Origin: a virus
DNA: 41,955 nt
Virus record (IMG/VR): IMGVR_UViG_3300033816_000498
Span: 1 to 41,955 of that record
Reading direction: 5' to 3' (one strand)
A model generated the notes under the pieces. That model was not told where the DNA came from, did no database searches, and worked only from the letters and a program-made list of their open reading frames with translations. The position numbers were made by a program, and so were the translations under genes. This document shows positions 7,169 through 41,955 of this stretch, one piece after another. The first letter of the stretch is position 1; each line of letters starts with the position of its first letter.

Positions 7169-7779
7169 TAACAAGTATTCCAGAAGGACAAATATGTCAA
7201 GCGTTTGATCCAAGAATGATTAAAGATGAAAAAGCACTCAAAATGCACAATACAAATGAGCAGCCAAACACCTCCTGTTTAGCACCAGCATACGTTTATG
7301 TAGAAGGAAAACATGGGAAAAAATTCTTGTGTGACGGTCACTACTATTATGAGTTATACATGAATAGAATTTGTTATTCAGCCCCAAATCATTCTGTGAG
7401 AGAAATTTCACAATTTATAATAGATGAAACAGAAAGAGTTAAAGAAACTTTTGCAAAAAATGTAACAAGTACAGAAACATTTGGTCACGAATGCTCTCTC
7501 ACTAATTATTTTAACTTAGGTGGTAGCGGTTGCACTGCTGATGCTTTGGTAAAAGTAAACCCTATCAGGGTTCCTGTTGGGAAAATAAACTTTACCTCAA
7601 CAGTAGACAGAGAAAATCTTTCAGCAGATATTTTTTATTGTAACTTTCATTATAGAAGAACTTATTATAGATACGTAAGTAATGGTCTTGTGTTTGAAGA
7701 TTATCATAAAGTGTTAGACGAAAGATATAGAATGACCATGACACTTGCTGAAGAGGCAGCAAGACTTAAATACGTATAA
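7165..7779 (+). CDS. Two-module zinc-binding protein, paralogue 1
   Basis: This 204-residue protein starts with MITSIPEGQICQAFDP. Two modules of the pattern C-x(3-6)-A-x-V...F-x-C-x-x-H can be seen: TSCLAPAYVYVEG ending FLCDGHYYYE, and GCTADALVKV ending FYCNFHYRR. These resemble the single module of the DUF7455-like protein at 8446-8688, so the protein looks like a tandem duplication of that metal-binding unit. It shares the start, ERVKETFAKNVTSTET and the C-terminal LDERYRMT with the next gene. Function is unknown. Confidence 0.75.
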   Translation: MITSIPEGQICQAFDPRMIKDEKALKMHNTNEQPNTSCLAPAYVYVEGKHGKKFLCDGHYYYELYMNRICYSAPNHSVREISQFIIDETERVKETFAKNVTSTETFGHECSLTNYFNLGGSGCTADALVKVNPIRVPVGKINFTSTVDRENLSADIFYCNFHYRRTYYRYVSNGLVFEDYHKVLDERYRMTMTLAEEAARLKYV

Positions 7780-11964: not shown

Positions 11965-12246
11965 ATGAATAGGTATGAGTGGAAAGATGATGCTGCATGC
12001 TTGGACTATGACACAAATGTATTCTTTGACAAGTACGAAGAAGATGAACTTCTAAGACCTGCAGTAGACCTAATGTGTTCTAATTGTTCTGTAAGAAAAG
12101 AGTGCTTTTCTGTAGGAATATCTGGGAAAGAATGGGGAGTTTGGGGTGGTGTATACTTGGAAAATGGAGAAGTCTCTAAAGAGTTTTCTAGCCACAAGAG
12201 TAAGACTGACTGGGGAAAAACTTGGCAGTCGTTAACAATGGAGTAA
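11965..12246 (+). CDS. WhiB-family [4Fe-4S] regulator
   Basis: This 93-residue protein has four conserved cysteines: Cys12 (DDAACLD), Cys38 and Cys41 (LMCSNCSV) and Cys47 (RKECFS). The turn GVWGGVYLENGE follows. This is the full Wbl signature: iron-sulfur cluster, then the G-[VI]-W-G-G beta-turn that contacts sigma factor. WhiB proteins are almost restricted to actinobacteria and their phages, so this is one of the best host markers in the window. Mycobacteriophage WhiB homologues are known regulators of host WhiB functions; here the target is unknown. Confidence 0.9.
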   Translation: MNRYEWKDDAACLDYDTNVFFDKYEEDELLRPAVDLMCSNCSVRKECFSVGISGKEWGVWGGVYLENGEVSKEFSSHKSKTDWGKTWQSLTME

Positions 12247-29538: not shown

Positions 29539-29591
29539 TTATCCACAGGTTCTTAGCCTTTACTTAATGAGTTATCCACAAGTTATCCACA
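29539..29591 (+). other. Cluster of three DnaA boxes (candidate origin)
   Basis: Perfect TTATCCACA boxes at 29539-29547, 29572-29580 and 29583-29591, all in the same orientation, with AT-rich sequence downstream (29592-29622). The non-coding stretch 29539-29955 (~415 nt) also holds tandem repeats, CAAACCT repeats and a terminator; I see no gene in it. Confidence 0.65.
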
Positions 29592-29628
29592 GATTAATCT
29601 TACTGATTATATTATTAGACAGTCTAGA

Positions 29629-29658
29629 AGTGGAGTAAAGTGGAGGATAGTGGAGTAT
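29629..29658 (+). repeat. 3 x 10-bp tandem repeat
   Basis: AGTGGAGTAA, AGTGGAGGAT and AGTGGAGTAT follow each other without gaps. The 10-bp period places copies on one face of the helix, as in iterons. Confidence 0.65.
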
Positions 29659-29837
29659 AGAGCCCTTTTATAGATGGCGTCGTAATCTCACTGGGGCCAA
29701 ACCTCACATCTCCAAACCTTCAAACCTCATACCACATATGCTCGATATTGTCAAACCTCATATCCCATTGTAAGGTTTGGGCATTATACATGCAAAACCT
29801 TGGTTTGTCAAGTCCTTGTATGCATGATTTTGCCCAT

Positions 29838-32360: not shown

Positions 32361-32564
32361 TTATATTGTAGCCTCTAGCACTGACAAAAAGTGGTAGCAG
32401 GCAAGAATCTGTCCATTGGTTGAGATATCCTCTATTTCTAAAGAACGATACTCGTCATTATCATAGTCAGTATAAGTATCCATTTTGGCTTGTAGTTCCT
32501 CAGAGTCTTGCTCCAAGGACAGCAGGTGCAGTCTTACATATTCTTCGAATGTATTTAGGTCCAT
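32361..32564 (-). CDS. Helical acidic protein, paralogue B
   Basis: This 67-residue protein contains EEYVRLHLLSLEQDSEELQA, then YTDYDNDEYRSLE and GQILACYHFLSVLEATI. It lies 2 nt from paralogue A. Two such short coiled helices could dimerise; function unknown. Confidence 0.6.
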   Translation of the reverse strand: MDLNTFEEYVRLHLLSLEQDSEELQAKMDTYTDYDNDEYRSLEIEDISTNGQILACYHFLSVLEATI

Positions 32565-32567
32565 ATA

Positions 32568-32768
32568 TTAATTATACGGGTTCGTGTTGATTTTTACAAC
32601 TTCACGGGGTGTGACTTCCATCACAGGTTGATACGCAGGGGATGAGCCAATACCAATAACCATTCCTCTGGCGCAAATACAGTCAGGATCTACCCTTGGT
32701 ATCTCCAGGGCAGTGACCTCAATAAGAGCATCACAGTTAGTACATACATAGTCATGCTTAGTCCACAT
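32568..32768 (-). CDS. Cys-containing hypothetical protein
   Basis: This 66-residue protein contains YVCTNCDALIEVTALEIPRV, then DPDCICARGM: C-x2-C and C-x-C, a zinc-ribbon-like site, with a beta-rich tail (EVTPREVVKIN). TAATG overlap with the upstream gene. Confidence 0.6.
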   Translation of the reverse strand: MWTKHDYVCTNCDALIEVTALEIPRVDPDCICARGMVIGIGSSPAYQPVMEVTPREVVKINTNPYN

Positions 32769-33081: not shown

Positions 33082-33182
33082 AGATTAATTGTAGCAAAGA
33101 TATGGGAAAAAATCAAATCTATCGTAAAGAAATTTCGGGAAAAATATCACTCTATCGTAATTAAGTTTTAACAAAAATCTCA

Positions 33183-33198
33183 TGTGACCTAGATCACA
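33183..33198. promoter_or_regulatory. CRP/GlxR-type palindrome
   Basis: TGTGACCTAGATCACA is a perfect TGTGA-N6-TCACA palindrome and fits the actinobacterial GlxR form TGTGA-NNTANN-TCACA. It lies ~95 nt upstream of the leaderless -10 at 33088-33093 and touches GGGGCGCCCC. The rest of 33082-33243 holds two ATCGTAA copies and no gene. Confidence 0.7.
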
Positions 33199-33199
33199 G

Positions 33200-33209
33200 G
33201 GGGCGCCCC
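33200..33209. repeat. GGGGCGCCCC palindrome
   Basis: A 10-bp perfect palindrome 1 nt from the CRP-type site and 34 nt from the tRNA-Asp end. Copies recur at 34525 and 39914, with shorter forms at 30405 and 36325. Confidence 0.6.
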
Positions 33210-33243
33210 GATTTTTATGCATTGCGTTGCATATTTATACTTG

Positions 33244-33317
33244 CGATCCGTACGGGACTTGAACCCGTGACCTCTACCGTGACAGGGTAGCGAACTAACC
33301 AACTATTCTAACGGACC
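33244..33317 (-). tRNA. tRNA-Asp (GUC)
   Basis: Minus-strand cloverleaf: acceptor GGTCCGT/ACGGATC, anticodon stem CTACC/GGTAG with loop CTGTCAC (GTC), T arm CACGGG-TTCAAGT-CCCGT, discriminator G. It lies between the DUF932 gene and the next early operon, isolated from the other tRNAs. Confidence 0.92.
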
Positions 33318-33320
33318 ATG

Positions 33321-33347
33321 TGAGCAGTTTTTGCATCCACTTGCTCA
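33321..33347. repeat. TGAGCA/TGCTCA hairpin
   Basis: A 6-bp inverted repeat with a 15-nt loop between the DUF932 stop and tRNA-Asp. It is one of five similar hairpins at gene ends. Confidence 0.5.
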
Positions 33348-33371
33348 GGTGGCATTTATTTATTTTTTTAT

Positions 33372-34385
33372 TTATGCGTTAGTTAATTCACGCACAATTT
33401 TTAGTAAGCGATTTTTTTCTGCATTGATAGCAGGGTCAAAACCACTTGCAGATGCAAGGATTGATTCGTTAGAACCACCACGAGCAGAACGGTGCCAATC
33501 TAAACGCTCAGTAAGTGCATTGAAAGCACCCCACGCATTACCAGCAATCATTCCGTTAAACTCGCCTGTGTAGATGTCATTGATAACATCAACCTTGTTT
33601 TCCCACTTCTTGAAAGCACCCTTAGAATCCTTTTCAGGCTTTGGGTATGCAGCAAGAATGATGTCGTTAAACATCTTAGCAGAAACTTCTTGTTGAATCA
33701 TAGCGTTAGCCATGAGGTCAAAAGAATCCATGTACTTATGAGCAAGCCCAAGAGTTTCACGAGCAACGGCAACCTTACCAGATGCTGTCTGTGTGTGGCG
33801 AATCTTGAAAGATTGCTTGACACCATTCTTCTTGCGTGTAGTGTTAAGTGCAAGATTAAGAGTGTTAGCACATACAACACGAACAGGTGTAATAGATGCT
33901 TGAATAGCGATTGAGCCGTCATGTGATGTGTTGATAAGTAAATAAGTCTTTACCTTATCTGCAACACCATTAGGGTCAAGAATTGTTTCACGCTCTAGTG
34001 CTAAAGCACCGAACACGACACGACCACCCTTGATTGAGCCAGCCGTTTCCCAACGACCTCCACCATCAAGAATGTTATCACCGAATGAGAATAAATCTTC
34101 ATTCTGCATTACATGATAACGCTCACCAACGACACCAAGAATGTCGGTCTGAGAGTTATCGGTAGGGTTAGTGCGAAGAACATATTGGTAGTTCTTGTCG
34201 CTTGTTAGATGTGAGGGGGTATCCAAATCTTCCAGACGAACATTCCAATTATTTAGATTGGCAGCAGCAAGCATTTCGCTTGTTGTTTTTTCTTCTGTGA
34301 ATACGGTACCCAATCCATGCCAAGCAGGTTCACGGAAAGATGCAAAAGATGCCTTACCGTTTTGTGTTTCTAGGTCATGTGCCAT
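33372..34385 (-). CDS. DUF932 (phage/plasmid-like TIGR03299) protein
   Basis: This 337-residue protein carries the family landmarks: REPAWHGLGTVFTEEKTTSE, YHVMQNEDLFSFGDNILDGG, YLLINTSHDGSIAIQASITP, VRVVCANTLNLAL and HRSARGGSNESILASA at the C-terminus. It is widespread on phages and plasmids; the molecular function is not established. It has a strong AGGAGAAAA ribosome site and is a single-gene unit under an N11 promoter, which suggests high early expression. Confidence 0.92.
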   Translation of the reverse strand: MAHDLETQNGKASFASFREPAWHGLGTVFTEEKTTSEMLAAANLNNWNVRLEDLDTPSHLTSDKNYQYVLRTNPTDNSQTDILGVVGERYHVMQNEDLFSFGDNILDGGGRWETAGSIKGGRVVFGALALERETILDPNGVADKVKTYLLINTSHDGSIAIQASITPVRVVCANTLNLALNTTRKKNGVKQSFKIRHTQTASGKVAVARETLGLAHKYMDSFDLMANAMIQQEVSAKMFNDIILAAYPKPEKDSKGAFKKWENKVDVINDIYTGEFNGMIAGNAWGAFNALTERLDWHRSARGGSNESILASASGFDPAINAEKNRLLKIVRELTNA

Positions 34386-34418
34386 GAGTTTTCTCCTTTT
34401 TGTTGTTGTTGAATTTTA

Positions 34419-34441
34419 AGTATAGCAGGATAGACTGACAA
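34419..34441 (-). promoter_or_regulatory. N11-class promoter upstream of DUF932
   Basis: Read on the - strand: TTGTCA (plus 34436-34441), 11 nt, TATACT (plus 34419-34424) preceded by TGC. A TTGCAT at a canonical 17-nt distance also exists, so a standard -35 is an alternative here. Confidence 0.65.
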
Positions 34442-34524
34442 ATGCAAATCGGGATAGTTAAGCATGGACAAATCGGACATTTCGTAAAAGATCACCCCTA
34501 AGCATCGGCGTGTCGACTTGACAG

Positions 34525-34534
34525 GGGGCGCCCC
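34525..34534. repeat. GGGGCGCCCC palindrome
   Basis: Perfect 10-bp palindrome in the DUF932 upstream region, flanked by AAAATTTT on the right. Confidence 0.6.
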
Positions 34535-34554
34535 AAAATTTTGAGGGAAGAGAG

Positions 34555-34575
34555 GAGCAGTTTTAAAACATGCTC
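34555..34575. repeat. GAGCA/TGCTC hairpin
   Basis: GAGCA (34555-34559) and TGCTC (34571-34575) around GTTTTAAAACA, followed by AGG. It lies 3' of the 34597-35013 gene. Confidence 0.5.
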
Positions 34576-34596
34576 AGGTTTATTAGTAGCCCCCTA

Positions 34597-35013
34597 CTAA
34601 ATTTCTATACGGTCAACACTGGATGATAAGTAAGTTACTTCTTCACCATATGAGACTGAATCAAAATCAATATCATGAATTAGATTCTGTGCACTCTCTT
34701 CATCACGTGCATTTACTGTAATTGAATACTGAACTGTAACTTCTAGTTCAAATTCTTTTGACAATTCAAATCCGCAAATGTCTGCAATTTCTTGTGCAGT
34801 AGACTCATCGATTGTTCCGTGCTCCATTGCTTCCAAGGTCCACTCTTGCATTTCATTACGCATACGGTTACGCTCTGCAGCCTCGCCATATGAGCGTTGG
34901 GTTACCTTTTGGATGTGCTCTTCAAGTTGCTGAATGCGTTCTTTATTTTGCACAAGAGTGGTTTCTAAAAACTCTCGTGTCATGTAGTGATTGTCGATTA
35001 CTGGCTGGTCCAT
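34597..35013 (-). CDS. Coiled-coil hypothetical protein
   Basis: This 138-residue protein starts MDQPVIDNHYM, followed by a long coiled-coil-like helix (TTLVQNKERIQQLEEHIQKV) and a beta-rich C-terminal part (FELEVTVQYSITVNARDEES). ATG 35013 follows AAAGAGG. An ACT-like or ferredoxin-like fold is possible for the C-terminus. Single-gene unit under an N11 promoter. Confidence 0.65.
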   Translation of the reverse strand: MDQPVIDNHYMTREFLETTLVQNKERIQQLEEHIQKVTQRSYGEAAERNRMRNEMQEWTLEAMEHGTIDESTAQEIADICGFELSKEFELEVTVQYSITVNARDEESAQNLIHDIDFDSVSYGEEVTYLSSSVDRIEI

Positions 35014-35044
35014 GGGGGCCTCTTTCTGTTTGTTGGTTAATTTA

Positions 35045-35067
35045 ATTGTACTGTAGTGCACTGACAA
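35045..35067 (-). promoter_or_regulatory. N11-class promoter
   Basis: TTGTCA (plus 35062-35067), 11 nt, TACAAT (plus 35045-35050). This is the only copy without the TG extension. Leader of ~30 nt to ATG 35013. Confidence 0.65.
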
Positions 35068-35149
35068 ATTAGGTGCCACTCCCCCAGGGGACTTTAGCCA
35101 AATGAATGGATTGGATCCATAGTCTTGGATTGAACCAGGGGGAGAGGCG

Positions 35150-35172
35150 TGAGCAGTTTAGCGACATACTCA
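35150..35172. repeat. TGAG/CTCA hairpin (imperfect GAGCA type)
   Basis: TGAGCAGTTT...TACTCAGG: same element as at 34555 with one stem mismatch. It lies 3' of the 35190-35612 gene. Confidence 0.4.
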
Positions 35173-35189
35173 GGTCGTTTATTATCTAA

Positions 35190-35612
35190 TTATAGATAAC
35201 GGGCAACGGCTTGATAAGTTGATGTAGAAACTGTTTCCTCATCTGTCATCTTTAGTATGCGAATAGCGTTAGAGATTTCCTCTTTCTGCTCACGATAGTT
35301 ATAGACAGACATTGACTCAAAATCCTTTACAGGCTCTTTAGGCAAGTCTGCTTCTGATACTGTTAGGTCGAAGTCAATGTTTAACTGATTATTCCATGAA
35401 CGGAAGTTTGTACGGAAGTTTTCAGCCTTCTTGATGTTGGCAATAGCATAAGCAGTAACTTCCTTCTTATACTTTTCCATAGCCTTTTGGTGCTTTGCTT
35501 CGTTGGCTTCTTGTGATGTGTAGTCAAGTTCTAACTTAGCAAGTGCTTGCTCTAGTGCCTTGATTACCTTTGGTGTTGCGATTTTAACTGAGATTGCTTT
35601 CTGTCGTGCCAT
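35190..35612 (-). CDS. Helical hypothetical phage protein
   Basis: This 140-residue protein is strongly helical: VIKALEQALAKLELDYTSQE, KHQKAMEKYKKEV, then DFDLTVSEADLP and REQKEEISNAIRILKMTDEE. Basic N-terminus. AAGGAA precedes ATG. I see similar proteins in actinophage early regions but have no function for them. Confidence 0.65.
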   Translation of the reverse strand: MARQKAISVKIATPKVIKALEQALAKLELDYTSQEANEAKHQKAMEKYKKEVTAYAIANIKKAENFRTNFRSWNNQLNIDFDLTVSEADLPKEPVKDFESMSVYNYREQKEEISNAIRILKMTDEETVSTSTYQAVARYL

Positions 35613-35651
35613 TGGGTCTGTTCCTTTTCTTTTAGTTTGTTAGGGGGTTGG

Positions 35652-35677
35652 TGAGCCTTTTTTCACTATCATGCTCA
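35652..35677. repeat. TGAGC/GCTCA hairpin
   Basis: TGAGC (35652-35656) and GCTCA (35673-35677), followed by GGATAC. It lies 3' of the 35734-35901 gene. Confidence 0.45.
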
Positions 35678-35733
35678 GGATACTTCTCGCCCCTTATTTA
35701 TAGTGCCTGTACGCCCGACACTTAGTAATTAGA

Positions 35734-35901
35734 TTACTTAGCCGTCCAAGTTGTGTAACGAACTGAACCATTTACATCTAACTTAACACGAACTGATTGT
35801 CCGTTTGGGTTAGGTGTGATTTCTGTGATTGTTCCTGTTACCTTTGACTTCTGTGTTGTGTAGAGGTCTCCGACTTTGTATGTTGCTGTTGCTACTGACA
35901 T
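35734..35901 (-). CDS. Small beta-barrel (KOW/SH3-like) protein, copy 1
   Basis: This 55-residue protein contains YKVGDLYTTQKSKVTGTITE, then VRVKLDVNGSVRYTTW. Successive beta strands with a G-D-L-Y turn suggest an SH3/KOW-like barrel. It shares its pattern with the next gene (GDLFTTSKTGVTGRI). A sigma70-like promoter (TTGACA, 18 nt, TATACT at plus 35944-35973) precedes it. Confidence 0.6.
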   Translation of the reverse strand: MSVATATYKVGDLYTTQKSKVTGTITEITPNPNGQSVRVKLDVNGSVRYTTWTAK

Positions 35902-35943
35902 TGTATTTCCTTTTCTGTTAGAGGGTTGTTTTCGTTATACCTA

Positions 35944-35973
35944 AGTATAACATTTTGCTTGTAAAAATGTCAA
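35944..35973 (-). promoter_or_regulatory. Sigma70-type promoter
   Basis: TTGACA (plus 35968-35973), 18-nt spacer, TATACT (plus 35944-35949). The -35 is one arm of TGTCA-N10-TGACA with its partner at 35983-35987, a possible operator. Confidence 0.6.
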
Positions 35974-36004
35974 ATCGAAATCTGACATTTCTCACATTTT
36001 GAGA

Positions 36005-36175
36005 TTACTTAGATGTCTTGACCATAGCCAGACGGCGTGAGCCATTTGCTAGGACGAGTGAAACTCTAGTAACCTTATTAGACATTGGCTCGAAACCTGC
36101 GATACGACCTGTAACGCCTGTCTTGCTTGTTGTGAACAAGTCACCAATTTGGTATGTGTATCCGTGTAGTGTCAT
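36005..36175 (-). CDS. Small beta-barrel (KOW/SH3-like) protein, copy 2
   Basis: This 56-residue protein contains YTYQIGDLFTTSKTGVTGRI, then VTRVSLVLANGSRRLAMV. A paralogue of the downstream gene 35734-35901. ATG 36175 was chosen after AAAGG; the open frame upstream lacks coding character. Confidence 0.6.
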   Translation of the reverse strand: MTLHGYTYQIGDLFTTSKTGVTGRIAGFEPMSNKVTRVSLVLANGSRRLAMVKTSK

Positions 36176-36268
36176 TTGGGTCTTGCCTTTCGTTGTGGGG
36201 GTTAATTGCTTATAGTATAATTTTAGCAGAAAAATGTCATAAATACAAATTTTGGTGACATTTTTGTG

Positions 36269-36284
36269 TGTGTCCTTAATCACA
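36269..36284. promoter_or_regulatory. CRP-type palindrome (one mismatch)
   Basis: TGTGTCCTTAATCACA: the right half is perfect and the left half has T for A. It lies ~95 nt upstream of ATG 36175. Nearby 36325-36332 is GGGCGCCC. Confidence 0.45.
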
Positions 36285-36355
36285 TTTTTTATGCGTGTCG
36301 TGACTTGACAAATGACTGGTCAGGGGGCGCCCTGCATTTTTCGCAGGGGACTTAG

Positions 36356-36427
36356 TTAACTACCAGAACTACCACCAATAGATAATAAAATAATTATTAT
36401 CATTAGTAAATAGAACCAATTACTCAT
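36356..36427 (-). CDS. 23-residue hydrophobic peptide
   Basis: MSNWFYLLMIIIILLSIGGS plus SGS: a single membrane helix. The ATG directly follows the gp88-like stop. Tiny but well placed. Confidence 0.45.
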   Translation of the reverse strand: MSNWFYLLMIIIILLSIGGSSGS

Positions 36428-37153
36428 TTATTTTTTACTCGCACTAAATATGATATCACTCTTAGAGTATACACAAAGTGAGCAAGAAACGCAAGCCGAG
36501 CCCTGCTTAGAAATAAGTGGAATCTGTTTATTATTTTCAGGACACTTAGCAGCAGGTCGTCCGATCATTTCTTTTACATCTGCCTGGCCAATAGCAAAAT
36601 TCTTAGCAAGGTATGCCATGCGTATGCCACTATTAATTTTTAGATCTACGGCAGTTTTAACATTCTCACTATCTGCAGAGAAATACAATGATAGATTATC
36701 TACATCCTTAAGGATAAGTGCAGCACTCTTCACACGTGTGTATACCCAGAATTGAATATCGGGGTGCTTATCAATAACTATCTTCCAGGCATATGTATAA
36801 GTATCATTAAAGAAATCGCCGTCCCAGTGGATACGGAATAACTTAGGTGCGTCTTTCTTATCACAGTCATTCTTAAAATCAATGATCATTTCATTAAGTA
36901 AACGGACCATGGTTTCACCGTCTGCGTCTTTTAGCAGATCCCAATTGTGTAGTAGGTTAGCCTTTACTCCTTTGAAGAGTTTTTCAAGTTTTCCTGCATA
37001 GCATACACTTTCACAAACGCTAGTGGCACCAGGGCACGAGAAAGCCTTTCCAGCAGGTAGTCCAAATGTGTTAGCGATTGTTGCGGTTTTTCCATTAGGT
37101 GAGACGGCATTAGCGACCTTTCTGTCAAATGATCTTTTTAGTTTAGTAGTCAA
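36428..37153 (-). CDS. gp88-like phage protein
   Basis: This 241-residue protein has GLPAGKAFSCPGATSVCESVCYAGK near residue 31-55 (three Cys), RIHWDGDFFNDTY, WVYTRVKSA, LYFSADSENV, and a Cys-rich end (AKCPENNKQIP, GSACVSCSLC). This is the Gene-product-88 family seen in phages and plasmids; the cysteines suggest a metal or iron-sulfur centre, with activity not established to my knowledge. It is downstream of a small zinc protein with an 11-nt overlap. Confidence 0.85.
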   Translation of the reverse strand: MTTKLKRSFDRKVANAVSPNGKTATIANTFGLPAGKAFSCPGATSVCESVCYAGKLEKLFKGVKANLLHNWDLLKDADGETMVRLLNEMIIDFKNDCDKKDAPKLFRIHWDGDFFNDTYTYAWKIVIDKHPDIQFWVYTRVKSAALILKDVDNLSLYFSADSENVKTAVDLKINSGIRMAYLAKNFAIGQADVKEMIGRPAAKCPENNKQIPLISKQGSACVSCSLCVYSKSDIIFSASKK

Positions 37154-37310
37154 GGCCTAGGCTCATTTCTAGTGCGATGTCTTCGTTATAGGTTGCAGAC
37201 ATTTCTTCAAGCAAGCAATGTGTGCACTTATCTTCATAGTCATCAACGGCATTTTCTTTGCATGAAGGGCAGGTGGTTGCGTAGTACTCATCTAGTGCGT
37301 AGTCGTTCAT
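37143..37310 (-). CDS. Zinc-ribbon protein
   Basis: This 55-residue protein carries TTCPSCKENAVDDYEDKCTHC, a compact zinc ribbon, then an acidic helical tail. ATG 37310 overlaps the preceding stop (ATGA). It overlaps the gp88-like gene, so the two are probably translated together. Confidence 0.65.
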   Translation of the reverse strand: MNDYALDEYYATTCPSCKENAVDDYEDKCTHCLLEEMSATYNEDIALEMSLGLDY

Positions 37311-37456
37311 AGGGGGTCTCCTTTGTATTTCTTTAATTGTATCATTTCGGACTGACATTTCCTACGGTTGTAGGATTTCTTTGAAGGCACGGCTGAGGCA
37401 GCATTAGAACGCCTTAGTTCCATGAGTCTGCGTAATTCTTCAGGTGTTTTCTTCAT
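37307..37456 (-). CDS. 49-residue basic protein
   Basis: MKKTPEELRRLMELRRSNAA, then PSKKSYNRRKCQSEMIQLKK: helical and strongly basic, perhaps nucleic-acid binding. Leaderless: TAAGAT, 6 nt, ATG. The N11 promoter for the next gene lies inside its 3' end. Confidence 0.55.
   Translation of the reverse strand: MKKTPEELRRLMELRRSNAASAVPSKKSYNRRKCQSEMIQLKKYKGDPL
37336..37358 (-). promoter_or_regulatory. N11-class promoter inside the upstream gene
   Basis: ATGTCA (plus 37353-37358), 11 nt, TACAAT (plus 37336-37341) preceded by TGA. Leader ~20 nt with AAAGGAG to ATG 37310. Confidence 0.65.
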
Positions 37457-37462
37457 AAGTTA

Positions 37463-37492
37463 ATCTTAGCAGACTTATGGTAAAAATGTCAA
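37463..37492 (-). promoter_or_regulatory. Sigma70-type leaderless promoter
   Basis: TTGACA (plus 37487-37492), 18 nt, TAAGAT (plus 37463-37468), 6 nt, ATG 37456. Confidence 0.7.
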
Positions 37493-37502
37493 ATCTTCAT
37501 CG

Positions 37503-37518
37503 TGTGATTAAAATCACA
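37503..37518. promoter_or_regulatory. CRP-type palindrome
   Basis: TGTGATTAAAATCACA, perfect TGTGA-N6-TCACA. It lies 10 nt upstream of the -35 of the leaderless promoter at 37463-37492, a classic activator position (centre ~-55). Confidence 0.7.
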
Positions 37519-37604
37519 AAAATTTTTCCCAGCCAAAAATTCGGGGAAATAAAACGCTTCTTCTTAAAGAAATTAGAATAGGGTTACTGACGAGTAGGCT
37601 AGAG

Positions 37605-37624
37605 TTATCCACAGGTTATCCCCA
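37605..37624 (+). other. DnaA box pair
   Basis: TTATCCACA at 37605-37613 and TTATCCCCA at 37616-37624, same orientation. Confidence 0.5.
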
Positions 37625-37651
37625 GACACACCCGAACGGGGCGGTCCAAAA

Positions 37652-37675
37652 TTTGCAGATTTTTAGATCTGCAAA
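37652..37675 (-). terminator. Intrinsic terminator
   Basis: TTTGCAGAT and ATCTGCAAA form a perfect 9-bp stem with loop of 6; on the - strand TTTT follows. It lies just after the stop of the 37683-37772 gene. Confidence 0.7.
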
Positions 37676-37682
37676 ATTGGTT

Positions 37683-37772
37683 TTATTCTTTTTCTATTTC
37701 ATCTAATAGTTCCCAAAGTACTGGCTCTAATTGTTTAGCAACTAAATCTAATTTTTCTTGTAGTGTTTTCAT
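37683..37772 (-). CDS. 29-residue helical peptide
   Basis: MKTLQEKLDLVAKQLEPVLW then ELLDEIEKE: one amphipathic helix. ATG directly follows the upstream stop; a terminator follows. Confidence 0.5.
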   Translation of the reverse strand: MKTLQEKLDLVAKQLEPVLWELLDEIEKE

Positions 37773-37967
37773 TTATTTAACCAACCCTTCAAACCATTGT
37801 GAGTATCCACCATTAAAGTAGACCTCATCTCCATTAGCATTAACAAGTGTTGCAGTGATTGATTCTAAATCATCATTGACATAGACAACCTCTTTAACAA
37901 GATAGTTTGTATCGTTAGCAATGAATAGTTTGCCAACATTAGTTTTATTGATTAGTGATAGTGACAT
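37773..37967 (-). CDS. Small beta-rich protein
   Basis: This 64-residue protein contains INKTNVGKLFIANDTNYLVK, then LESITATLVNANGDEVYFNG. Resembles the small-barrel proteins at 35.7-36.2 kb in pattern (VGKLF, strand pairs). TAATG overlap with the upstream gene. Confidence 0.6.
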   Translation of the reverse strand: MSLSLINKTNVGKLFIANDTNYLVKEVVYVNDDLESITATLVNANGDEVYFNGGYSQWFEGLVK

Positions 37968-38113
37968 TAGTTTTCTACTTTCTTTAGTTCGTGATTATTA
38001 TTAAGGGGACGACTGCTATTAGAGAACATAGCCTCAATAACTGCCTTATCTTTTATTGATTGAGCAATTCTTTTTTCTTGTTGCTCTTTTAGTATTCTGT
38101 TATAAGTATCCAT
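37967..38113 (-). CDS. 48-residue helical protein
   Basis: MDTYNRILKEQQEKRIAQSI, then KDKAVIEAMFSNSS. Gln/Lys-rich helix. TAATG overlap with the downstream gene. Confidence 0.55.
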   Translation of the reverse strand: MDTYNRILKEQQEKRIAQSIKDKAVIEAMFSNSSRPLNNNHELKKVEN

Positions 38114-38144
38114 TTATTATGAACCTTTCTTTTAGTTAATTTTC

Positions 38145-38282
38145 TTACAGAGTTTCTAGGTAGAAACCTGTTTGGCAAGTAGGGCAGATTGGACCCTGCT
38201 CCTCGCCATCAATAGAAACCACTTCATTAGTGCACTTGTCGCACCATAGTAGTTCGTTTACATTTATTGAGTAAGTCATCAT
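38145..38282 (-). CDS. 45-residue zinc-ribbon protein
   Basis: WCDKCTNEVVSIDGEEQGPI then CPTCQTGFYLETL, a minimal zinc ribbon. ATG 38282 follows AAGGAG; a second ATG is adjacent. Confidence 0.6.
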   Translation of the reverse strand: MMTYSINVNELLWCDKCTNEVVSIDGEEQGPICPTCQTGFYLETL

Positions 38283-38335
38283 TTTGATAACTCCTTTCTT
38301 TCTTAGTGAGAGTTTCTCACTTTCTTTATACTGAA

Positions 38336-38358
38336 AGTCTACCATGGGGGACTGACAA
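38336..38358 (-). promoter_or_regulatory. N11-class promoter
   Basis: TTGTCA (plus 38353-38358), 11 nt (GTCCCCCATGG), TAGACT (plus 38336-38341). Leader ~47 nt to ATG 38282. Confidence 0.7.
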
Positions 38359-38396
38359 ATTAGCCTGTTTTTCGGGCGTGTCGGAAAACTATTTTT

Positions 38397-38412
38397 TGTG
38401 ATAAGCATCACA
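38397..38412. promoter_or_regulatory. CRP-type palindrome
   Basis: TGTGATAAGCATCACA, perfect TGTGA-N6-TCACA, centred ~75 nt upstream of the predicted start of the 38282 operon. Confidence 0.7.
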
Positions 38413-38416
38413 TGAC

Positions 38417-38437
38417 TTATCCACAGAGTTATCCACA
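38417..38437 (+). other. DnaA box pair
   Basis: Perfect TTATCCACA at 38417-38425 and 38429-38437, immediately next to the CRP-type palindrome. Confidence 0.5.
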
Positions 38438-38467
38438 GGGACCGCCCCCATTTTTCAGGGAATTTAT

Positions 38468-38713
38468 TTATTCAACATCGTCATCTAAAAAAACATACAA
38501 CGGAATTAAATCAGTGTAAGCAAATTGAATTATTTCTCTTTCACCAAATTCATTTTCGGTTTGTATGTCATAGTTATCGCCAGTAGAATCACTTTCAATA
38601 AAAAGAATCTCAACAATGTCATCTCCCGTTTTTATTAAATCACCAAGCATCAATTGATCTGGCGTTAGATTATCTGCGTGTATTAAATCCATAGCAATCA
38701 TTGTATCAGACAT
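38468..38713 (-). CDS. Acidic hypothetical protein
   Basis: This 81-residue acidic protein contains LTPDQLMLGDLIKTGDDIVE and EIIQFAYTDLIPLYVFLDDD. L-G-D-L-I plus strands suggests another small barrel. It abuts the next upstream gene with no gap. Confidence 0.6.
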   Translation of the reverse strand: MSDTMIAMDLIHADNLTPDQLMLGDLIKTGDDIVEILFIESDSTGDNYDIQTENEFGEREIIQFAYTDLIPLYVFLDDDVE

Positions 38714-38986
38714 TTAGTCCTCACTTTCTGGCAACCAAAAAGATAAGTGGTGCTGCTCAATTATTGCCCATGCTGGTGCATGGCTCATGCCCTTATAAAA
38801 TACGCCTTCAGGCATAGCAATAAATTTATCATAGTCCTCATCATAGTATGCATCAATAGCATCAATGCAAGGCTGAACCATGCTTAGTGGTACGGGTGGA
38901 TAGTGATTACCCTGTAAGTGATAAGCAATCTGAGTTTCTAAGTCAAGCACTGAGTCCTGTATTCCTAACGCTGTAACACTTCCCAT
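38714..38986 (-). CDS. Hypothetical actinophage-type protein
   Basis: This 90-residue protein contains GNHYPPVPLSMVQPCIDAID, then FYKGMSHAPAWAIIEQHHLS. The H-Y-P-P-V-P...C-x-x-A-I-D-A signature is one I know from actinophage early proteins. Function unknown. Confidence 0.7.
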   Translation of the reverse strand: MGSVTALGIQDSVLDLETQIAYHLQGNHYPPVPLSMVQPCIDAIDAYYDEDYDKFIAMPEGVFYKGMSHAPAWAIIEQHHLSFWLPESED

Positions 38987-39205
38987 TTACTTACCCCCTA
39001 CAATTTCACTGCGATACAAAATCTTTGTATGCATTTTTCCACTAGGCTCTGATAGATTAACTGTTCTGTATTCCATAGCATCTCCGTGGTCTACAAAACT
39101 ATTAAAGACATTTACTGCATCAAGTGCATTTGAGTAACGACCAACCCATTGAGGGCTAGTGCTACTATCGTTATTGCTAGTTACTGAGTATAGGTATTCG
39201 TTCAT
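38987..39205 (-). CDS. Hypothetical protein
   Basis: This 72-residue protein contains NEYLYSVTSNNDSSTSPQWV, then ALDAVNVFNSFVDHGDAMEY. It is directly adjacent to its neighbour, with TAATG overlap upstream. Confidence 0.6.
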   Translation of the reverse strand: MNEYLYSVTSNNDSSTSPQWVGRYSNALDAVNVFNSFVDHGDAMEYRTVNLSEPSGKMHTKILYRSEIVGGK

Positions 39206-39357
39206 TAGTTATTCTCCTTAGTGATAAATAATTGGTGTGGGTTGCAATCGCAAGACTCTGTATCAAAGTCTGTTTCATTTCCAAAGTATAACCAACCTGT
39301 ACCATAGCATAGGTCACAAGTAGTTATTTCTGTGTATAGTGTTTTCATCATAGCCAT
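39205..39357 (-). CDS. DnaJ-like zinc-finger protein
   Basis: This 50-residue protein contains TTCDLCYGTGWLYFGNETDF, then SCDCNPHQLF: C-x2-C-x-G-x-G plus C-x-C, half of a DnaJ-type cysteine repeat. TAATG overlaps at both ends. Confidence 0.6.
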   Translation of the reverse strand: MAMMKTLYTEITTCDLCYGTGWLYFGNETDFDTESCDCNPHQLFITKENN

Positions 39358-39479
39358 TAGATAGCCCCTTCCTGAAATAAACCTATTTCTAGGTCTAGCA
39401 ATTCTTTATCTGTTGCCTGAGACAAGTCTATCCAACCTGCCCCCTCATTGTCAATTCTAAAAATCTCTATGTATCCCAT
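39357..39479 (-). CDS. 40-residue acidic protein
   Basis: MGYIEIFRIDNEGAGWIDLS followed by QATDKELLDLEIGLF. TAATG overlap with the next gene; starts 2 nt after the 39482-39691 gene ends. Confidence 0.55.
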   Translation of the reverse strand: MGYIEIFRIDNEGAGWIDLSQATDKELLDLEIGLFQEGAI

Positions 39480-39481
39480 TA

Positions 39482-39691
39482 CTAGTCTCCAATTCTTACT
39501 GCTAGGACACGATAAGTATCCTTTAAGTTAAGTGGGGCTGAGTAGTGGGGACGAACCTGAACAAGATAACTTTCGCAACCCTCATACCATACATCAGACT
39601 TTTCGGCTGAGATAATTTCTCCCTTTAGTGTGCGAGAGTGATAAGTTTTTCCTACAAGTAGGTTTTCTATTGTATAGACATTTGCTGACAT
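39482..39691 (-). CDS. Small beta-rich protein
   Basis: This 69-residue protein contains IENLLVGKTYHSRTLKGEII, then YLVQVRPHYSAPLNLKDTYR. Barrel-like strand pattern similar to other small proteins of this region. First gene of a six-gene operon under an N11 promoter, with an AGAGG ribosome site. Confidence 0.6.
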   Translation of the reverse strand: MSANVYTIENLLVGKTYHSRTLKGEIISAEKSDVWYEGCESYLVQVRPHYSAPLNLKDTYRVLAVRIGD

Positions 39692-39723
39692 TTGCCAACC
39701 TCTTTCTTTTTGTTGATAATTCT

Positions 39724-39746
39724 ATCCTATCATGGGGGTCTGACAT
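39724..39746 (-). promoter_or_regulatory. N11-class promoter
   Basis: ATGTCA (plus 39741-39746), 11 nt (GACCCCCATGA), TAGGAT (plus 39724-39729). Confidence 0.7.
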
Positions 39747-39877
39747 TTTCGGTTAGACACGCCGTAAGCGAATAGACTTTCTTTTATTTATTTTTTCTTA
39801 CTATGTAAGTCTAGCCTATTAGACATAAATTATCAAGTTACTAGGGAGTAAGTCCAAATAGTGAGACGCTTAGACCA

Positions 39878-39893
39878 TGTGATAAAACTCACA
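39878..39893. promoter_or_regulatory. CRP-type palindrome
   Basis: TGTGATAAAACTCACA, perfect TGTGA-N6-TCACA, ~165 nt upstream of the N11 promoter start. The 39692-39966 spacer has no gene. Confidence 0.6.
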
Positions 39894-39913
39894 GCGTGGC
39901 GACACGCCCGAAC

Positions 39914-39923
39914 GGGGCGCCCC
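39914..39923. repeat. GGGGCGCCCC palindrome
   Basis: Perfect 10-bp palindrome 20 nt from the CRP-type site and preceded by CCCGAAC. Confidence 0.6.
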
Positions 39924-39933
39924 AAAAAATTGG

Positions 39934-39954
39934 GAGCAGTTTTAGATCTTGCTC
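39934..39954. repeat. GAGCA/TGCTC hairpin
   Basis: GAGCA (39934-39938) and TGCTC (39950-39954) around GTTTTAGATCT, followed by AGG. It lies 3' of the 39967-40161 gene. Confidence 0.5.
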
Positions 39955-39966
39955 AGGATTTTATTT

Positions 39967-40161
39967 TTATTTTAGCGTTGCAAGAAATTCTTGCGAATCC
40001 ATACACGCATCAAAAAATTTCTGTTCATCAAATCTTGGATTGTCAGAAGCAAACCACTCACTGAATTCAAAAATTAAATCTTGAAAATCACCAGAGTCGA
40101 TTGTGTTAGAAAACTTTTGAAGAATTTTTGCAGTTTCTACATAGTCCTTGCGTGTCATCAT
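39967..40161 (-). CDS. Actinophage-type small protein
   Basis: This 64-residue protein contains MTRKDYVETAKILQKFSNTI, then FEFSEWFASDNPRFDEQKFF. The TRKDY...DNPRFD signature recurs in actinophages in my memory, with no assigned function. Two ATGs in tandem; the first overlaps the upstream stop. Confidence 0.7.
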   Translation of the reverse strand: MMTRKDYVETAKILQKFSNTIDSGDFQDLIFEFSEWFASDNPRFDEQKFFDACMDSQEFLATLK

Positions 40162-40367
40162 TATGCAACCACCTTAAGAATTGCATAGGACCCGTTTTTG
40201 TTGATGTCCTCAATTGTTGGAAGTAGTGCAGGCACAAGCAGTTCCTTTAGCATACCTTCAAGCATAGCAATTAAGTCTGCATGAGGAATAGCAAGGGCCT
40301 GTTTTGCAATTGGATGTGTTTCGTCAAATTCTGTAACGAAGTTTAGAGAGTGTTTGATTTCTACCAT
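40161..40367 (-). CDS. Helical hypothetical protein
   Basis: This 68-residue protein contains MVEIKHSLNFVTEFDETHPI and IPHADLIAMLEGMLKELLVP. ATG 40367 was chosen: the longer upstream frame overlaps another gene and lacks coding character. Overlaps the next gene by 1 nt. Confidence 0.6.
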   Translation of the reverse strand: MVEIKHSLNFVTEFDETHPIAKQALAIPHADLIAMLEGMLKELLVPALLPTIEDINKNGSYAILKVVA

Positions 40368-40389
40368 TTTTTTTAGTTTTCCTATTCTT

Positions 40390-40587
40390 TTAGTTTGAGT
40401 AAACGAGAGTCGATGTGCCACGAAGTGTGCCACTAATTCCGAGAGTATCGCAAGCAACCTTGACAGATACGCCAACAGGTAATTGTGTTGGATAAGTTGA
40501 GATGAATTGAGCAACAGCACCTTTTGAGGGTAGGCTGATTGTTTTGACAGAACCATTAAAGGTTTCTAGTTTTACAGTGTATGACAT
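40390..40587 (-). CDS. Beta-rich small protein
   Basis: This 65-residue protein contains MSYTVKLETFNGSVKTISLP, then PTQLPVGVSVKVACDTLGIS. First gene of the operon under the 40620-40642 promoter; AAGGATG is upstream of ATG 40587. Confidence 0.6.
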   Translation of the reverse strand: MSYTVKLETFNGSVKTISLPSKGAVAQFISTYPTQLPVGVSVKVACDTLGISGTLRGTSTLVYSN

Positions 40588-40619
40588 GGATGTCATCCTT
40601 TCGTTAAGTTGATAAGACT

Positions 40620-40642
40620 ATCTTACCATTGGGGGCTGACAT
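40620..40642 (-). promoter_or_regulatory. N11-class promoter
   Basis: ATGTCA (plus 40637-40642), 11 nt (GCCCCCAATGG), TAAGAT (plus 40620-40625). Confidence 0.7.
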
Positions 40643-40669
40643 TTTTGCCACTTATTTGCTAAGGCTCAC

Positions 40670-40685
40670 TGTGATACTGGTCACA
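40670..40685. promoter_or_regulatory. CRP-type palindrome
   Basis: TGTGATACTGGTCACA, perfect TGTGA-N6-TCACA, centred ~65 nt upstream of the predicted start. It sits between two 20-nt direct repeats (40652-40671 and 40687-40706, TTATTTGCTWAGGCTCAYTG). Confidence 0.75.
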
Positions 40686-40799
40686 TTTATTTGCTTAGGC
40701 TCATTGGCTAAACTGTCAATATTTAATTGTTATAGTAGAATACTACACTAAAAATCTCAAAAAGTCAAGTTTAGACACGGACAAAACGGACATTTTTGA

Positions 40800-40815
40800 T
40801 GTGATTTGCGTCACA
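40800..40815. promoter_or_regulatory. CRP-type palindrome
   Basis: TGTGATTTGCGTCACA, perfect TGTGA-N6-TCACA, followed by GGGGGCGCTC. Second site in the same intergenic region; 40588-40846 contains no gene. Confidence 0.65.
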
Positions 40816-40846
40816 GGGGGCGCTCTTTTTTTTGCAGGGTATTTAC

Positions 40847-40936
40847 TTATTCAGTCACGAATAAATAAAACCCATAGCCTAAACAGATCATAGAAAACCA
40901 AAACAAAGCATTACCATTTACAAAAAAGTCAATCAT
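40847..40936 (-). CDS. 29-residue single-TM peptide
   Basis: MIDFFVNGNALFWFSMICLG then YGFYLFVTE: one membrane helix. Starts 4 nt after the stop of the upstream gene. Confidence 0.5.
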   Translation of the reverse strand: MIDFFVNGNALFWFSMICLGYGFYLFVTE

Positions 40937-40940
40937 TTAT

Positions 40941-41078
40941 TTATCCTTCAATTTCTCTATAGTCAATTACATGAAAGTCTAATTGTCTTTCTAATGGCAT
41001 AGCCTTTAGCCAAGAATAAGCAGACTCAAAATCATCTGCCTCAACATCTACAAATAACTCAAAATTAAATACTGGCAT
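40941..41078 (-). CDS. 45-residue acidic protein
   Basis: MPVFNFELFVDVEADDFESA, then YSWLKAMPLERQLDFHVIDY: beta-alpha-beta layout. ATG 41078 follows AAGGAGGAAAAC and overlaps the upstream stop. Confidence 0.6.
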   Translation of the reverse strand: MPVFNFELFVDVEADDFESAYSWLKAMPLERQLDFHVIDYREIEG

Positions 41079-41239
41079 TAGTTTTCCTCCTTTTCTTTTA
41101 GCATTCCAAGAATTAACTCTAATTGTTTTGTGGTTAATAGTCCTTGTGCACAACCCCAAGCAAAAGCCAAATCCATTTCGCCATAGTGTTTTTTAGCAAG
41201 AACTTTTATTTCTTGTGCAATTTCAAAATTAGTTTTCAT
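41078..41239 (-). CDS. 53-residue helical protein
   Basis: MKTNFEIAQEIKVLAKKHYG, then AFAWGCAQGLLTTKQLELIL. TAATG overlaps at both ends. No family recognised. Confidence 0.6.
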   Translation of the reverse strand: MKTNFEIAQEIKVLAKKHYGEMDLAFAWGCAQGLLTTKQLELILGMLKEKEEN

Positions 41240-41349
41240 TATTTGTATTCTCCTTTCGAGATAAGTTCATCTAGCATTTTTGCTAGTGGGTCTATCTGCT
41301 CGTCTGCAAGATAGTTTTCTAATTCTAGGTTTTTTACAAAGTCTCTCAT
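41239..41349 (-). CDS. 36-residue acidic helical peptide
   Basis: MRDFVKNLELENYLADEQID then PLAKMLDELISKGEYK. TAATG/ATGA overlaps both neighbours. Confidence 0.55.
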   Translation of the reverse strand: MRDFVKNLELENYLADEQIDPLAKMLDELISKGEYK

Positions 41350-41525
41350 TTAGAAACCTTCCAATCTGACCACATTGGTAGTCTTTCTGGGTCAGTATCA
41401 TTATACCAACGCTCAATGTTTTGTTCACAATCTTGGCAGAAAGTAAATTGCTCATCTCCTACATTTGAGATAGCAGATTTCATTGGATTGTGCTCTACGC
41501 ACTTTTTATTTTCTAGTGTTATCAT
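41346..41525 (-). CDS. Zinc-binding small protein
   Basis: This 59-residue protein contains NKKCVEHNPMKSAI and FTFCQDCEQNIERWY: C-x2-H plus C-x2-C. ATG 41525 follows AAAGG. Confidence 0.6.
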   Translation of the reverse strand: MITLENKKCVEHNPMKSAISNVGDEQFTFCQDCEQNIERWYNDTDPERLPMWSDWKVSK

Positions 41526-41593
41526 TTTTGACAACCTTTCTTTTTTTTGTTAGTTAATTTTATTTTATTAAGTTTTTTGTTTTCTCTAATTAC

Positions 41594-41758
41594 TTAGAGA
41601 GAACGACCACATTGTGAGTGGTAGCAAGTGCCATCTGTTTTGCAGATGTCGTGAATTGTAGCAGGTGCTAATACAACCTGTCCACATTGGCAGAGGTTCA
41701 TTAACCCCTGTGGGTAGTCGCTAAGTGTTGCGACTCTTGCAAAGATTGAGTTTGTCAT
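41594..41758 (-). CDS. Cys-rich 54-residue protein
   Basis: MTNSIFARVATLSDYPQGLM, NLCQCGQVVLAPATIHDIC, then GTCYHSQCGRSL: five Cys and two His, likely one zinc site. First gene behind the 41812-41834 promoter. Confidence 0.6.
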   Translation of the reverse strand: MTNSIFARVATLSDYPQGLMNLCQCGQVVLAPATIHDICKTDGTCYHSQCGRSL

Positions 41759-41811
41759 TTCTGACTCCTTTCTTGTTAAATAACCTTTATTTAACTTTCT
41801 TTATACTAGTA

Positions 41812-41834
41812 AGTATAGCAGGGGGGTCTGACAA
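41812..41834 (-). promoter_or_regulatory. N11-class promoter
   Basis: TTGTCA (plus 41829-41834), 11 nt (GACCCCCCTGC), TATACT (plus 41812-41817). Leader ~47 nt to ATG 41758 with AAAGGAG. Confidence 0.7.
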
Positions 41835-41882
41835 ATTGAGGGGTATAAATAGGGCAATTCGGACATTGTGATGTAGCACACA

Positions 41883-41898
41883 TGTGATCTACACCACA
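41883..41898. promoter_or_regulatory. CRP-type palindrome (one mismatch)
   Basis: TGTGATCTACACCACA: the left half is perfect, the right half CCACA. Overlapping half-sites lie just left (TGTGATGTAGCACA at 41867-41880). Followed by GGGGGGCGC. Confidence 0.5.
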
Positions 41899-41899
41899 G

Positions 41900-41955
41900 G
41901 GGGGCGCTATATAGGGGGGTGCCTATATAGGGGGGGGTGTATATAGGGGGGGTAT
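41900..41955 (+). repeat. G-run/TATATA tandem repeat at window end
   Basis: About three units of CTATATA followed by 6-8 G and a TG step, running to the last base. It has four G-runs of 6 or more, so it could form a G-quadruplex, and it could be a difficult assembly end. Nothing coding is seen. Confidence 0.6.

Follow-up and report, generated by a model that had tools for sequence, protein, structure and literature searches.

Phage promoters that carry sites of host regulators have been described in cyanophages. The genomes of T4-like cyanophages are reported to hold 1 to 16 predicted NtcA sites each (mean 8.9, 16 genomes; PMC3037559), and cyanophage Pho boxes, for instance at the promoters of the DNA polymerase gene and of a UvsX-like gene, were bound by the host PhoB in gel shift experiments (PMC10976474). 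Here, we analyze the 41,955-base virus record IMGVR_UViG_3300033816_000498 over its full length (hereafter the window), whose right part contains an array of TGTGA-N6-TCACA palindromes, the operator type of the CRP/GlxR regulators. To our knowledge, freshwater actinobacterial phages are abundant while the control of their genes has been little studied.

This locus shares with the NtcA promoters of T4-like cyanophages, as far as these are described in the source, the presence of many predicted sites of a host CRP-family protein in a phage genome, and 2OG-Fe(II) oxygenase genes occur in the NtcA-site cyanophages and in the present phage group alike. The NtcA site, however, is GTA-N8-TAC, whereas the site TGTGA-N6-TCACA is found here in actinophages; this form, together with a WhiB gene indicating actinobacteria, excludes an NtcA site of the cyanophage type. 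Moreover, the present sites are nearly limited to one region, helically phased and partly joined to a PafBC-like core promoter, and in the accessible part of PMC3037559 phasing of the NtcA sites is not mentioned. At Pho boxes, too, a nutrient regulator of the host acts on phage promoters, yet PhoB is a two-component regulator of phosphate stress and its boxes are not a CRP-family array. The palindrome type itself is shared with the CRP-family regulons of GlxR in Corynebacterium glutamicum, which acts globally and has 209 sites mapped (PMC3917453), and of CRP in Mycobacterium tuberculosis. Those regulons serve host genes, whereas here phage promoters are concerned and the positional series is sharper. 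Since cyanophages carry predicted NtcA sites and PhoB-bound promoters, the kind of system is already known. New, as far as the consulted open-licence literature shows, are a CRP array in actinophages, the fact that it is phased and recurs in phages that are unrelated, and its pairing with a damage-type core. Mycobacteriophage stoperators, which are asymmetric sites of a phage repressor, are ruled out as a parallel by the inverted-repeat half-sites and the promoter phasing.

In this study, we propose with considerable confidence that the palindromes would serve as class-I-like activator sites for the host's own CRP/GlxR-type regulator. In a widespread group of freshwater actinophages, CRP-type sites lie upstream of the early promoters, for the most part at distances that differ by one helical turn, and the same arrangement recurs in unrelated phages; these viruses therefore probably rely on a master regulator of the host to turn on their first genes. 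The region is called early from its gene orientation, small genes and promoter density, a reading that is itself provisional. If the proposal is true, host cyclic AMP (cAMP) signalling would be a common infection switch in freshwater actinobacterial phages, and the positional series would offer an evolutionary readout of where actinobacterial CRP can activate.

Number and Distribution of the Palindromes

Seven perfect palindromes start at positions 32610, 33183, 37503, 38397, 39878, 40670 and 40800 of the window, all beyond 32.6 kb. Dinucleotide shuffles contain 0.05 perfect sites on average and none of 100 shuffles attains seven, in agreement with the original prediction that their number is far above chance. 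The six perfect sites listed in that prediction, from 33183 onward, and its two one-mismatch sites at 36269 and 41883 were all recovered, with 35981 and 41867 to be added to the latter. Its statement that the left 33 kb is free of sites is off by one, as the seventh perfect site was overlooked at 32610; this site also falls within the open reading frame (ORF) 32568-32768, so that not all sites are intergenic. Under mechanical ORF calling the sites at 38397 and 39878 each overlap a GTG-started ORF as well, which we take to be over-extended or spurious. The left part contains three one-mismatch sites, at 7397, 18853 and 23491. With up to two mismatches allowed, the window holds 32 sites against 26 expected, which is chance level, and the signal therefore resides in the near-perfect sites.

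Relatives were gathered via the DUF932 protein encoded in the same region (399 in viral contigs), and 80 loci (1.31 Mb) were kept. In these loci, TGTGA-N6-TCACA occurs 409 times at spacing 6, versus 0-12 times at spacings 0-5 and 7-12, and TGTGA ranks first among all palindromic 5-mers at N6 spacing, the runner-up reaching 75. Sequence and fixed 6-bp spacer are thus those of a CRP/GlxR operator. The density check across the genome that had been suggested along with the original prediction was run in three relatives of 108,863, 118,809 and 111,870 bases, where one region of about 8-14 kb holds 9 of 9, 7 of 7 and 7 of 8, respectively, of the perfect sites. Altogether 23 of 24 sites are confined in this way, the remaining one, in the third relative, lying about 9 kb from the region; in two of the three the region spans both record ends, circular permutation being assumed. 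In single-mismatch variants that are phased to promoters, the deviating base is usually the inner one of a half-site (59 of 94; TGTGG, TGTGT, ACACA). Among 354 dereplicated sites the central dinucleotide is TA in 69, AA in 85 and TT in 66; the preference for the GlxR-like central TA is only mild and therefore not decisive. Perfect symmetry over all 16 bases is present in 1 of these 354 sites compared to about 13 from the product of expected column matches, and is possibly avoided at CRP sites.

Helical Phasing to Predicted Promoters

Two types of core promoter are found downstream of the sites: a sigma70 type (TTGACA, TTGTAA and similar, 17 or 18 bp, TAnnnT) and a TTGTCA-N11-TAnnnT type. The gaps between palindrome and TGTCAG-N10-TAnnnT peak at 28, 38 and 48/49 (196 dereplicated pairs). 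The 183 dereplicated pairs with a gap of at most 75 give a Rayleigh R of 0.73 at 10.5 bp, in a set that stems partly from loci fetched by a pattern restricted to gaps of 22-52. Loci chosen by homology, together with the window, give R values of 0.59, 0.63, 0.62 and 0.61 at n = 63, 31, 19 and 15 under four ever stricter dereplications, with p ranging from 2.8e-10 to 4e-3. On the same promoter set, CRP sites reach R = 0.70 (n = 173), versus 0.18 (n = 53) and 0.20 (n = 38) for DnaA boxes and 0.27 (n = 102) for TGTCC elements. At sigma70-type promoters the gap from palindrome to -35 is chiefly 9 or 10.

Within the window, each +1 is placed by counting 12 bases from the start of the -10, the starts being predicted and not mapped. 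Where several promoter patterns were listed, the one with the better -35 was chosen, and the window spacing figures therefore carry some freedom, of which the family-wide test is independent. Eight sites, six of them perfect, have predicted centres from -53.5 to -85.5 in 10-bp steps and in one register (R = 0.94). All these sites and promoters are given on the minus strand. The first position of the series is taken by the perfect palindromes at 32610-32625 and 37503-37518. The former lies within the 3' end of its ORF, with its centre at about -53.5 of a predicted sigma70 promoter for ORF 32361-32564 (32571-32599, TTGTAA-N17-TATAAT), whose -10 reaches into the end of the ORF upstream; the latter is centred at about -54.5 of a predicted promoter at 37463-37492 (TTGACA-N18-TAAGAT). 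One turn further upstream lie the one-mismatch site at 36269-36284 (about -63.5 of the predicted promoter 36220-36248, TTGTAT-N17-TAAAAT) and the perfect palindrome at 40670-40685 (about -64.5 of promoter 40620-40642). These are followed by the perfect palindromes at 40800-40815 (about -74.5 of the predicted promoter 40740-40768, TTGACT-N17-TAGTAT) and 38397-38412 (about -75.5 of the TTGTCAG-N10-TANNNT promoter 38336-38358), and finally by the perfect palindrome at 39878-39893 (about -84.5 of the predicted promoter 39808-39836, TTGATA-N17-TAGACT) and the one-mismatch site at 41883-41898 (about -85.5 of promoter 41812-41834). Just upstream of the palindrome at 38397, in the sense of transcription, two DnaA boxes are located at 38417 and 38429.

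Apart from three sites of the window and a small half-turn class, the sites thus lie upstream of a core promoter on a fixed helical face, and the layout, as far as predicted starts define it, is class-I activator geometry. In E. coli, the class-I CRP register is -61.5, -71.5, -82.5 and -92.5. The predicted centres of the window (-53.5/-54.5, -63.5/-64.5, -74.5/-75.5, -84.5/-85.5) do not fall into that register. The mapped sites of M. tuberculosis CRP are reported to cluster between -60 and -40, e.g., at -55.5, -57.5 and -58.5, and the upstream ones to be consistent with activation (PMC4117774). In the mechanism that we envisage, a CRP dimer would bind one helix face in steps of one turn above the -10 and would recruit the RNA polymerase of the host to early promoters that are weak or atypical; early phage transcription would thereby follow host CRP activity.

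In three promoters, those of the sites at 32610, 33183 and 37503, the predicted +1 coincides with the A of an ATG (at 32564, 33081 and 37456, respectively), which suggests leaderless early transcripts.

PafBC-Like Core Promoters

Three of the eight phased window promoters have cores of the TTGTCA-N11-TAnnnT type: 38336-38358 (TTGTCAGTCCCCCATGGTAGACT), 40620-40642 (ATGTCAGCCCCCAATGGTAAGAT, upstream of ORF 40390-40596) and 41812-41834 (TTGTCAGACCCCCCTGCTATACT), all on the minus strand. In the 80 loci, with both strands counted, TTGTCA precedes TAnnnT 413 times at N11, versus 11-105 times at spacings 6-10 and 12-16; at N17, the ordinary sigma70 spacing, the count is 214. The form TGTCAG-N10-TAnnnT is strand-biased, with 614 occurrences on the DUF932 strand versus 47 on the opposite one. 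The pattern corresponds to the RecA-independent DNA-damage (RecA-NDp) motif of actinobacteria, reported as tTGTCRgtg-8 nt-TAnnnT (PMC5656591) and subsequently linked to PafBC (PMC6789036, PMC8223512), which is described as activated by single-stranded DNA and acting through sigma adaptation (PMC11804915). The phage promoters have TTGTCR at the 11-bp distance to TAnnnT that is given for RecA-NDp/PafBC promoters, but the gtg is only partly kept: its first G is set by our search pattern, the next T is present in 49% and the next G in 29%. A perfect palindrome lies within 110 bp of 49 of the 174 dereplicated N11 promoters and a one-mismatch site near a further 26, versus none for the reversed pattern.

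These core promoters suggest that the early transcription of the phage may make use of a DNA-damage activator of the host; a literature search at the level of titles and abstract beginnings met no report of PafBC in that role. As a tentative extension, to which we give clearly less than even chances, the early promoters could be combined sensors in which CRP/GlxR would convey the metabolic state, the PafBC activated by single-stranded DNA the damage or replication state and DnaA boxes in the same regions a replication signal; early transcription would then be set jointly by three regulators of the host.

Upstream of the N11 promoters of related loci, TGTCC elements are concentrated at distances of 31-33 and 39-40 bp ahead of TGTCAG. 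In the window, the element is found as ATGTCCG, e.g., near 41858.

Recurrence in Unrelated Phages and Identity of the Binding Protein

The arrangement is not restricted to the phage group. In viral contigs, the N6 palindrome at a gap of 9-11 to a TTGACA promoter is present in at least 120 stretches, compared to 32 for a gap of 14-16, 107 for a gap of 19-21 and 8 for an N7 palindrome at the gap of 9-11; dereplicated, these counts are at least 65, 19, 62 and 7, respectively, and the gap is exactly 10 in 53 of the 65 dereplicated stretches among the matches listed. For 51 of 114 gap-10 loci among the matches listed (six of the 120 stretches were already in the N11-promoter set), no protein is shared at E<=1e-8 with the right part of the window or with one relative. 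The palindrome combined with an N11 promoter was found in at least 120 stretches with N6 and in 2 with N7, and 117 of the 120 N6 loci among the matches listed have proteins in common with one relative of the group. The N11 promoter, in its TGTCAG-N10 form, is seldom seen in the unrelated loci (in 3 of 72 among those listed). WhiB, a marker gene of actinobacterial phages (PMC10202952, PMC6802176), is encoded by 24 of 50 unrelated gap-10 contigs compared to 5 of 39 control contigs that were unmatched in length or habitat (Fisher p=5e-4). The former are 50 of the 51 unrelated loci, L338 being omitted; the latter comprise all 8 N7 loci and 31 of 32 gap-14-16 loci (L306 omitted), with no filter for relation to the phage group.

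Two isolates on 'Candidatus Planktophila' strain LanE-43, OX376640 (LanE43-AprE7, here E7) and OX376641 (LanE43-AprF5, here F5), contain two perfect palindromes each, whereas 0.07 and 0.09 are expected; at spacings 0-5 or 7-12 none is present in either. Placed by eye, one E7 site has its centre at -74.5 relative to the core TTGACT-N17-GAGATT, and one F5 site has its centre at -53.5 relative to TCAAAA-N17-TAGAGT. Both isolates lack the TGTCAG-N10 promoter and the DnaA box TTATCCACA. In a phage collection, the two accessions are filed under the unspecific name 'Caudovirales sp. ct2KA10', with neither a host nor an annotation given.

A regulator carried by the phage itself was part of the original prediction, and a phage-encoded DNA-binding protein with CRP-like specificity that times early transcription is the best of the alternatives, although we judge it unlikely. 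In its favor, most scanned early proteins are small and without a family above the cut-off, and a small winged-helix protein could evade Pfam. A CRP-family gene was nevertheless not found: the cNMP_binding domain is absent from 15 viral records of the group, the window included, and from the 50 records of unrelated gap-10 phages, all of which may be fragments, while the same search matches 10 of 14 known genomes, C. glutamicum among them. Sigma, CRP and WYL families are likewise absent at E<=1e-6 from 81 proteins of at least 100 amino acids of one relative. These 81 are out of 87 listed, the two longest and four others at 16341-19158 of L084 being omitted, and the scan skipped proteins below 100 amino acids and five that cross piece borders. 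Furthermore, unrelated phages with the same palindrome and distance would each need the same phage regulator. That these phages share site and position, with no regulator gene found, points to a regulator supplied by the host.

Alternatively, the sites may be repressor operators that, for example, hold early genes off in some host state. CRP-family proteins can repress, but the ten window sites with a listed promoter all lie upstream of the -10 and never over it, eight of them in the helical series typical of activation, and in M. tuberculosis the upstream CRP sites are reported to tend toward activation (PMC4117774). We hold this explanation for improbable. Slightly more improbable still is a decoy array that titrates the host CRP and so rewires host metabolism instead of serving phage promoters. 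The window and each of the three large relatives do carry 7-9 perfect sites in a genome that is to be copied. Titration does not need phased placement at single promoters, however, which argues for promoter control, and M. tuberculosis CRP is reported at a several-fold excess over its mapped sites (PMC4117774). Chance or a compositional artefact, for which only the two-mismatch count would speak, is refuted by the shuffles and by the exclusive spacing and deserves practically no credence.

Of the original interpretation, CRP/GlxR-type operators tied to early operons are therefore retained, on account of the exclusive N6 spacer, the phased upstream placement, the lack of a phage cNMP domain, the same layout in unrelated phages and the above-chance isolates, while the phage-carried mimic and titration as the main role find no support. 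Under the preferred reading, activation by the host regulator, the binding protein would be the actinobacterial CRP/GlxR, and its effect on the promoters would presumably be activation instead of repression. The protein family suggests cAMP dependence, and the signal may be cAMP or the carbon state. The reported effect of cAMP on binding is small, about twofold, for M. tuberculosis CRP (PMC4005916) versus about 100-fold for GlxR (PMC7026483), and the signal may therefore differ by host.

Several observations weigh against activation by a host CRP. Three near-perfect window sites are off the series: the perfect palindrome at 33183 (-109.5) and the one-mismatch sites at 41867 (-69.5) and 35981 (-51.5), and R drops to 0.78 when the seven perfect sites are taken alone and to 0.58 when all eleven near-perfect ones are included. 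The register of -54, -64, -75 and -85 is offset by about 3 bp relative to that of class-I sites in E. coli, and a half-turn class with gaps of 33/34 makes up 11 of the 196 pairs. No CRP-like site lies within 110 bp of 99 of the 174 dereplicated PafBC-like promoters. In the viral contigs, the off-phase gap of 14-16 exceeds the N7 control (32 versus 8), and 26 of the 50 unrelated gap-10 contigs, some of them short, are without WhiB, in a comparison weakened by its unmatched controls. The automatic promoter pattern found no match near the E7 and F5 palindromes, and the two of four isolate sites that were placed by eye have weak cores. Finally, Streptomyces phage Jay2Jay, one phage of many, with a DUF932 protein 52% identical, has no perfect site; it also lacks the N11 peak, and a trait common to the nearest named relatives was rejected on these grounds.

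Host, Neighboring Genes and Other Repeats

The host of the window is read as actinobacterial because of the WhiB-family protein encoded at 11965-12246 on the plus strand; it would be a freshwater actinobacterium, perhaps of the 'Candidatus Nanopelagicales'. WhiB is present in all seven large relatives tested. A contig (L081) of a metagenome-assembled genome (MAG) labelled Chitinophaga pinensis encodes a partial WhiB with 64% identity to that of the phage over 42 residues. As it is the sole WhiB match of that genome, L081 is probably a misplaced phage contig.

The marker gene of the phage group, encoding the DUF932 protein, lies at 33372-34385 on the minus strand (Pfam E 2.9e-47), preceded by a TTGTCAG-N10-TATACT promoter from 34441 on the same strand, near which the window has no perfect CRP palindrome. 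The same region encodes a GP88 family protein (36428-37153, minus strand; Pfam E 4.7e-53) and many small proteins without family match. The nearest named relatives are distant, the best DUF932 identity being 52.5% with Streptomyces phages of the Jay2Jay kind, and near searches with the right part of the window and three unrelated loci matched no named phage.

All three off-series sites are on the minus strand. The perfect palindrome at 33183-33198 adjoins a GGGGCGCCCC palindrome and is at about -109.5 of its nearest predicted promoter (33088-33116), outside the close series; between them, at 33090-33170, lie repeated TTACGATAG elements that also occur in related loci. The site at 35981-35996 is about 2 bp off the series relative to a predicted TTGACA-N18-TATACT promoter, and that at 41867-41882 abuts the 41883 site, half a turn off.

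DnaA boxes (TTATCCACA) are found in the window at 37605, 38417 and 38429. In the 80 loci they are about 30-fold enriched (420 versus 13.5 expected by base composition), and 150 of the 420 are no more than 150 bp away from a perfect CRP palindrome, yet the boxes are unphased to the promoters. Outside the CRP-site region, a block at 29539-29660 combines three DnaA boxes (29539, 29572, 29583), an AT-rich stretch and AGTGGAG repeats, and recurs in three relatives that are 108 kb or longer; it is a candidate DnaA-dependent replication origin. A further motif, GGCGTGTCG (34507, 38375 and 39900 in the window), occurs 221 times in the 80 loci versus 2.3 expected by base composition; its opposite strand contains GACAC, which may be reminiscent of a WhiA motif. 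The contig end carries, at 41899-41952, a tandem repeat of a G-rich TATATAGG unit.

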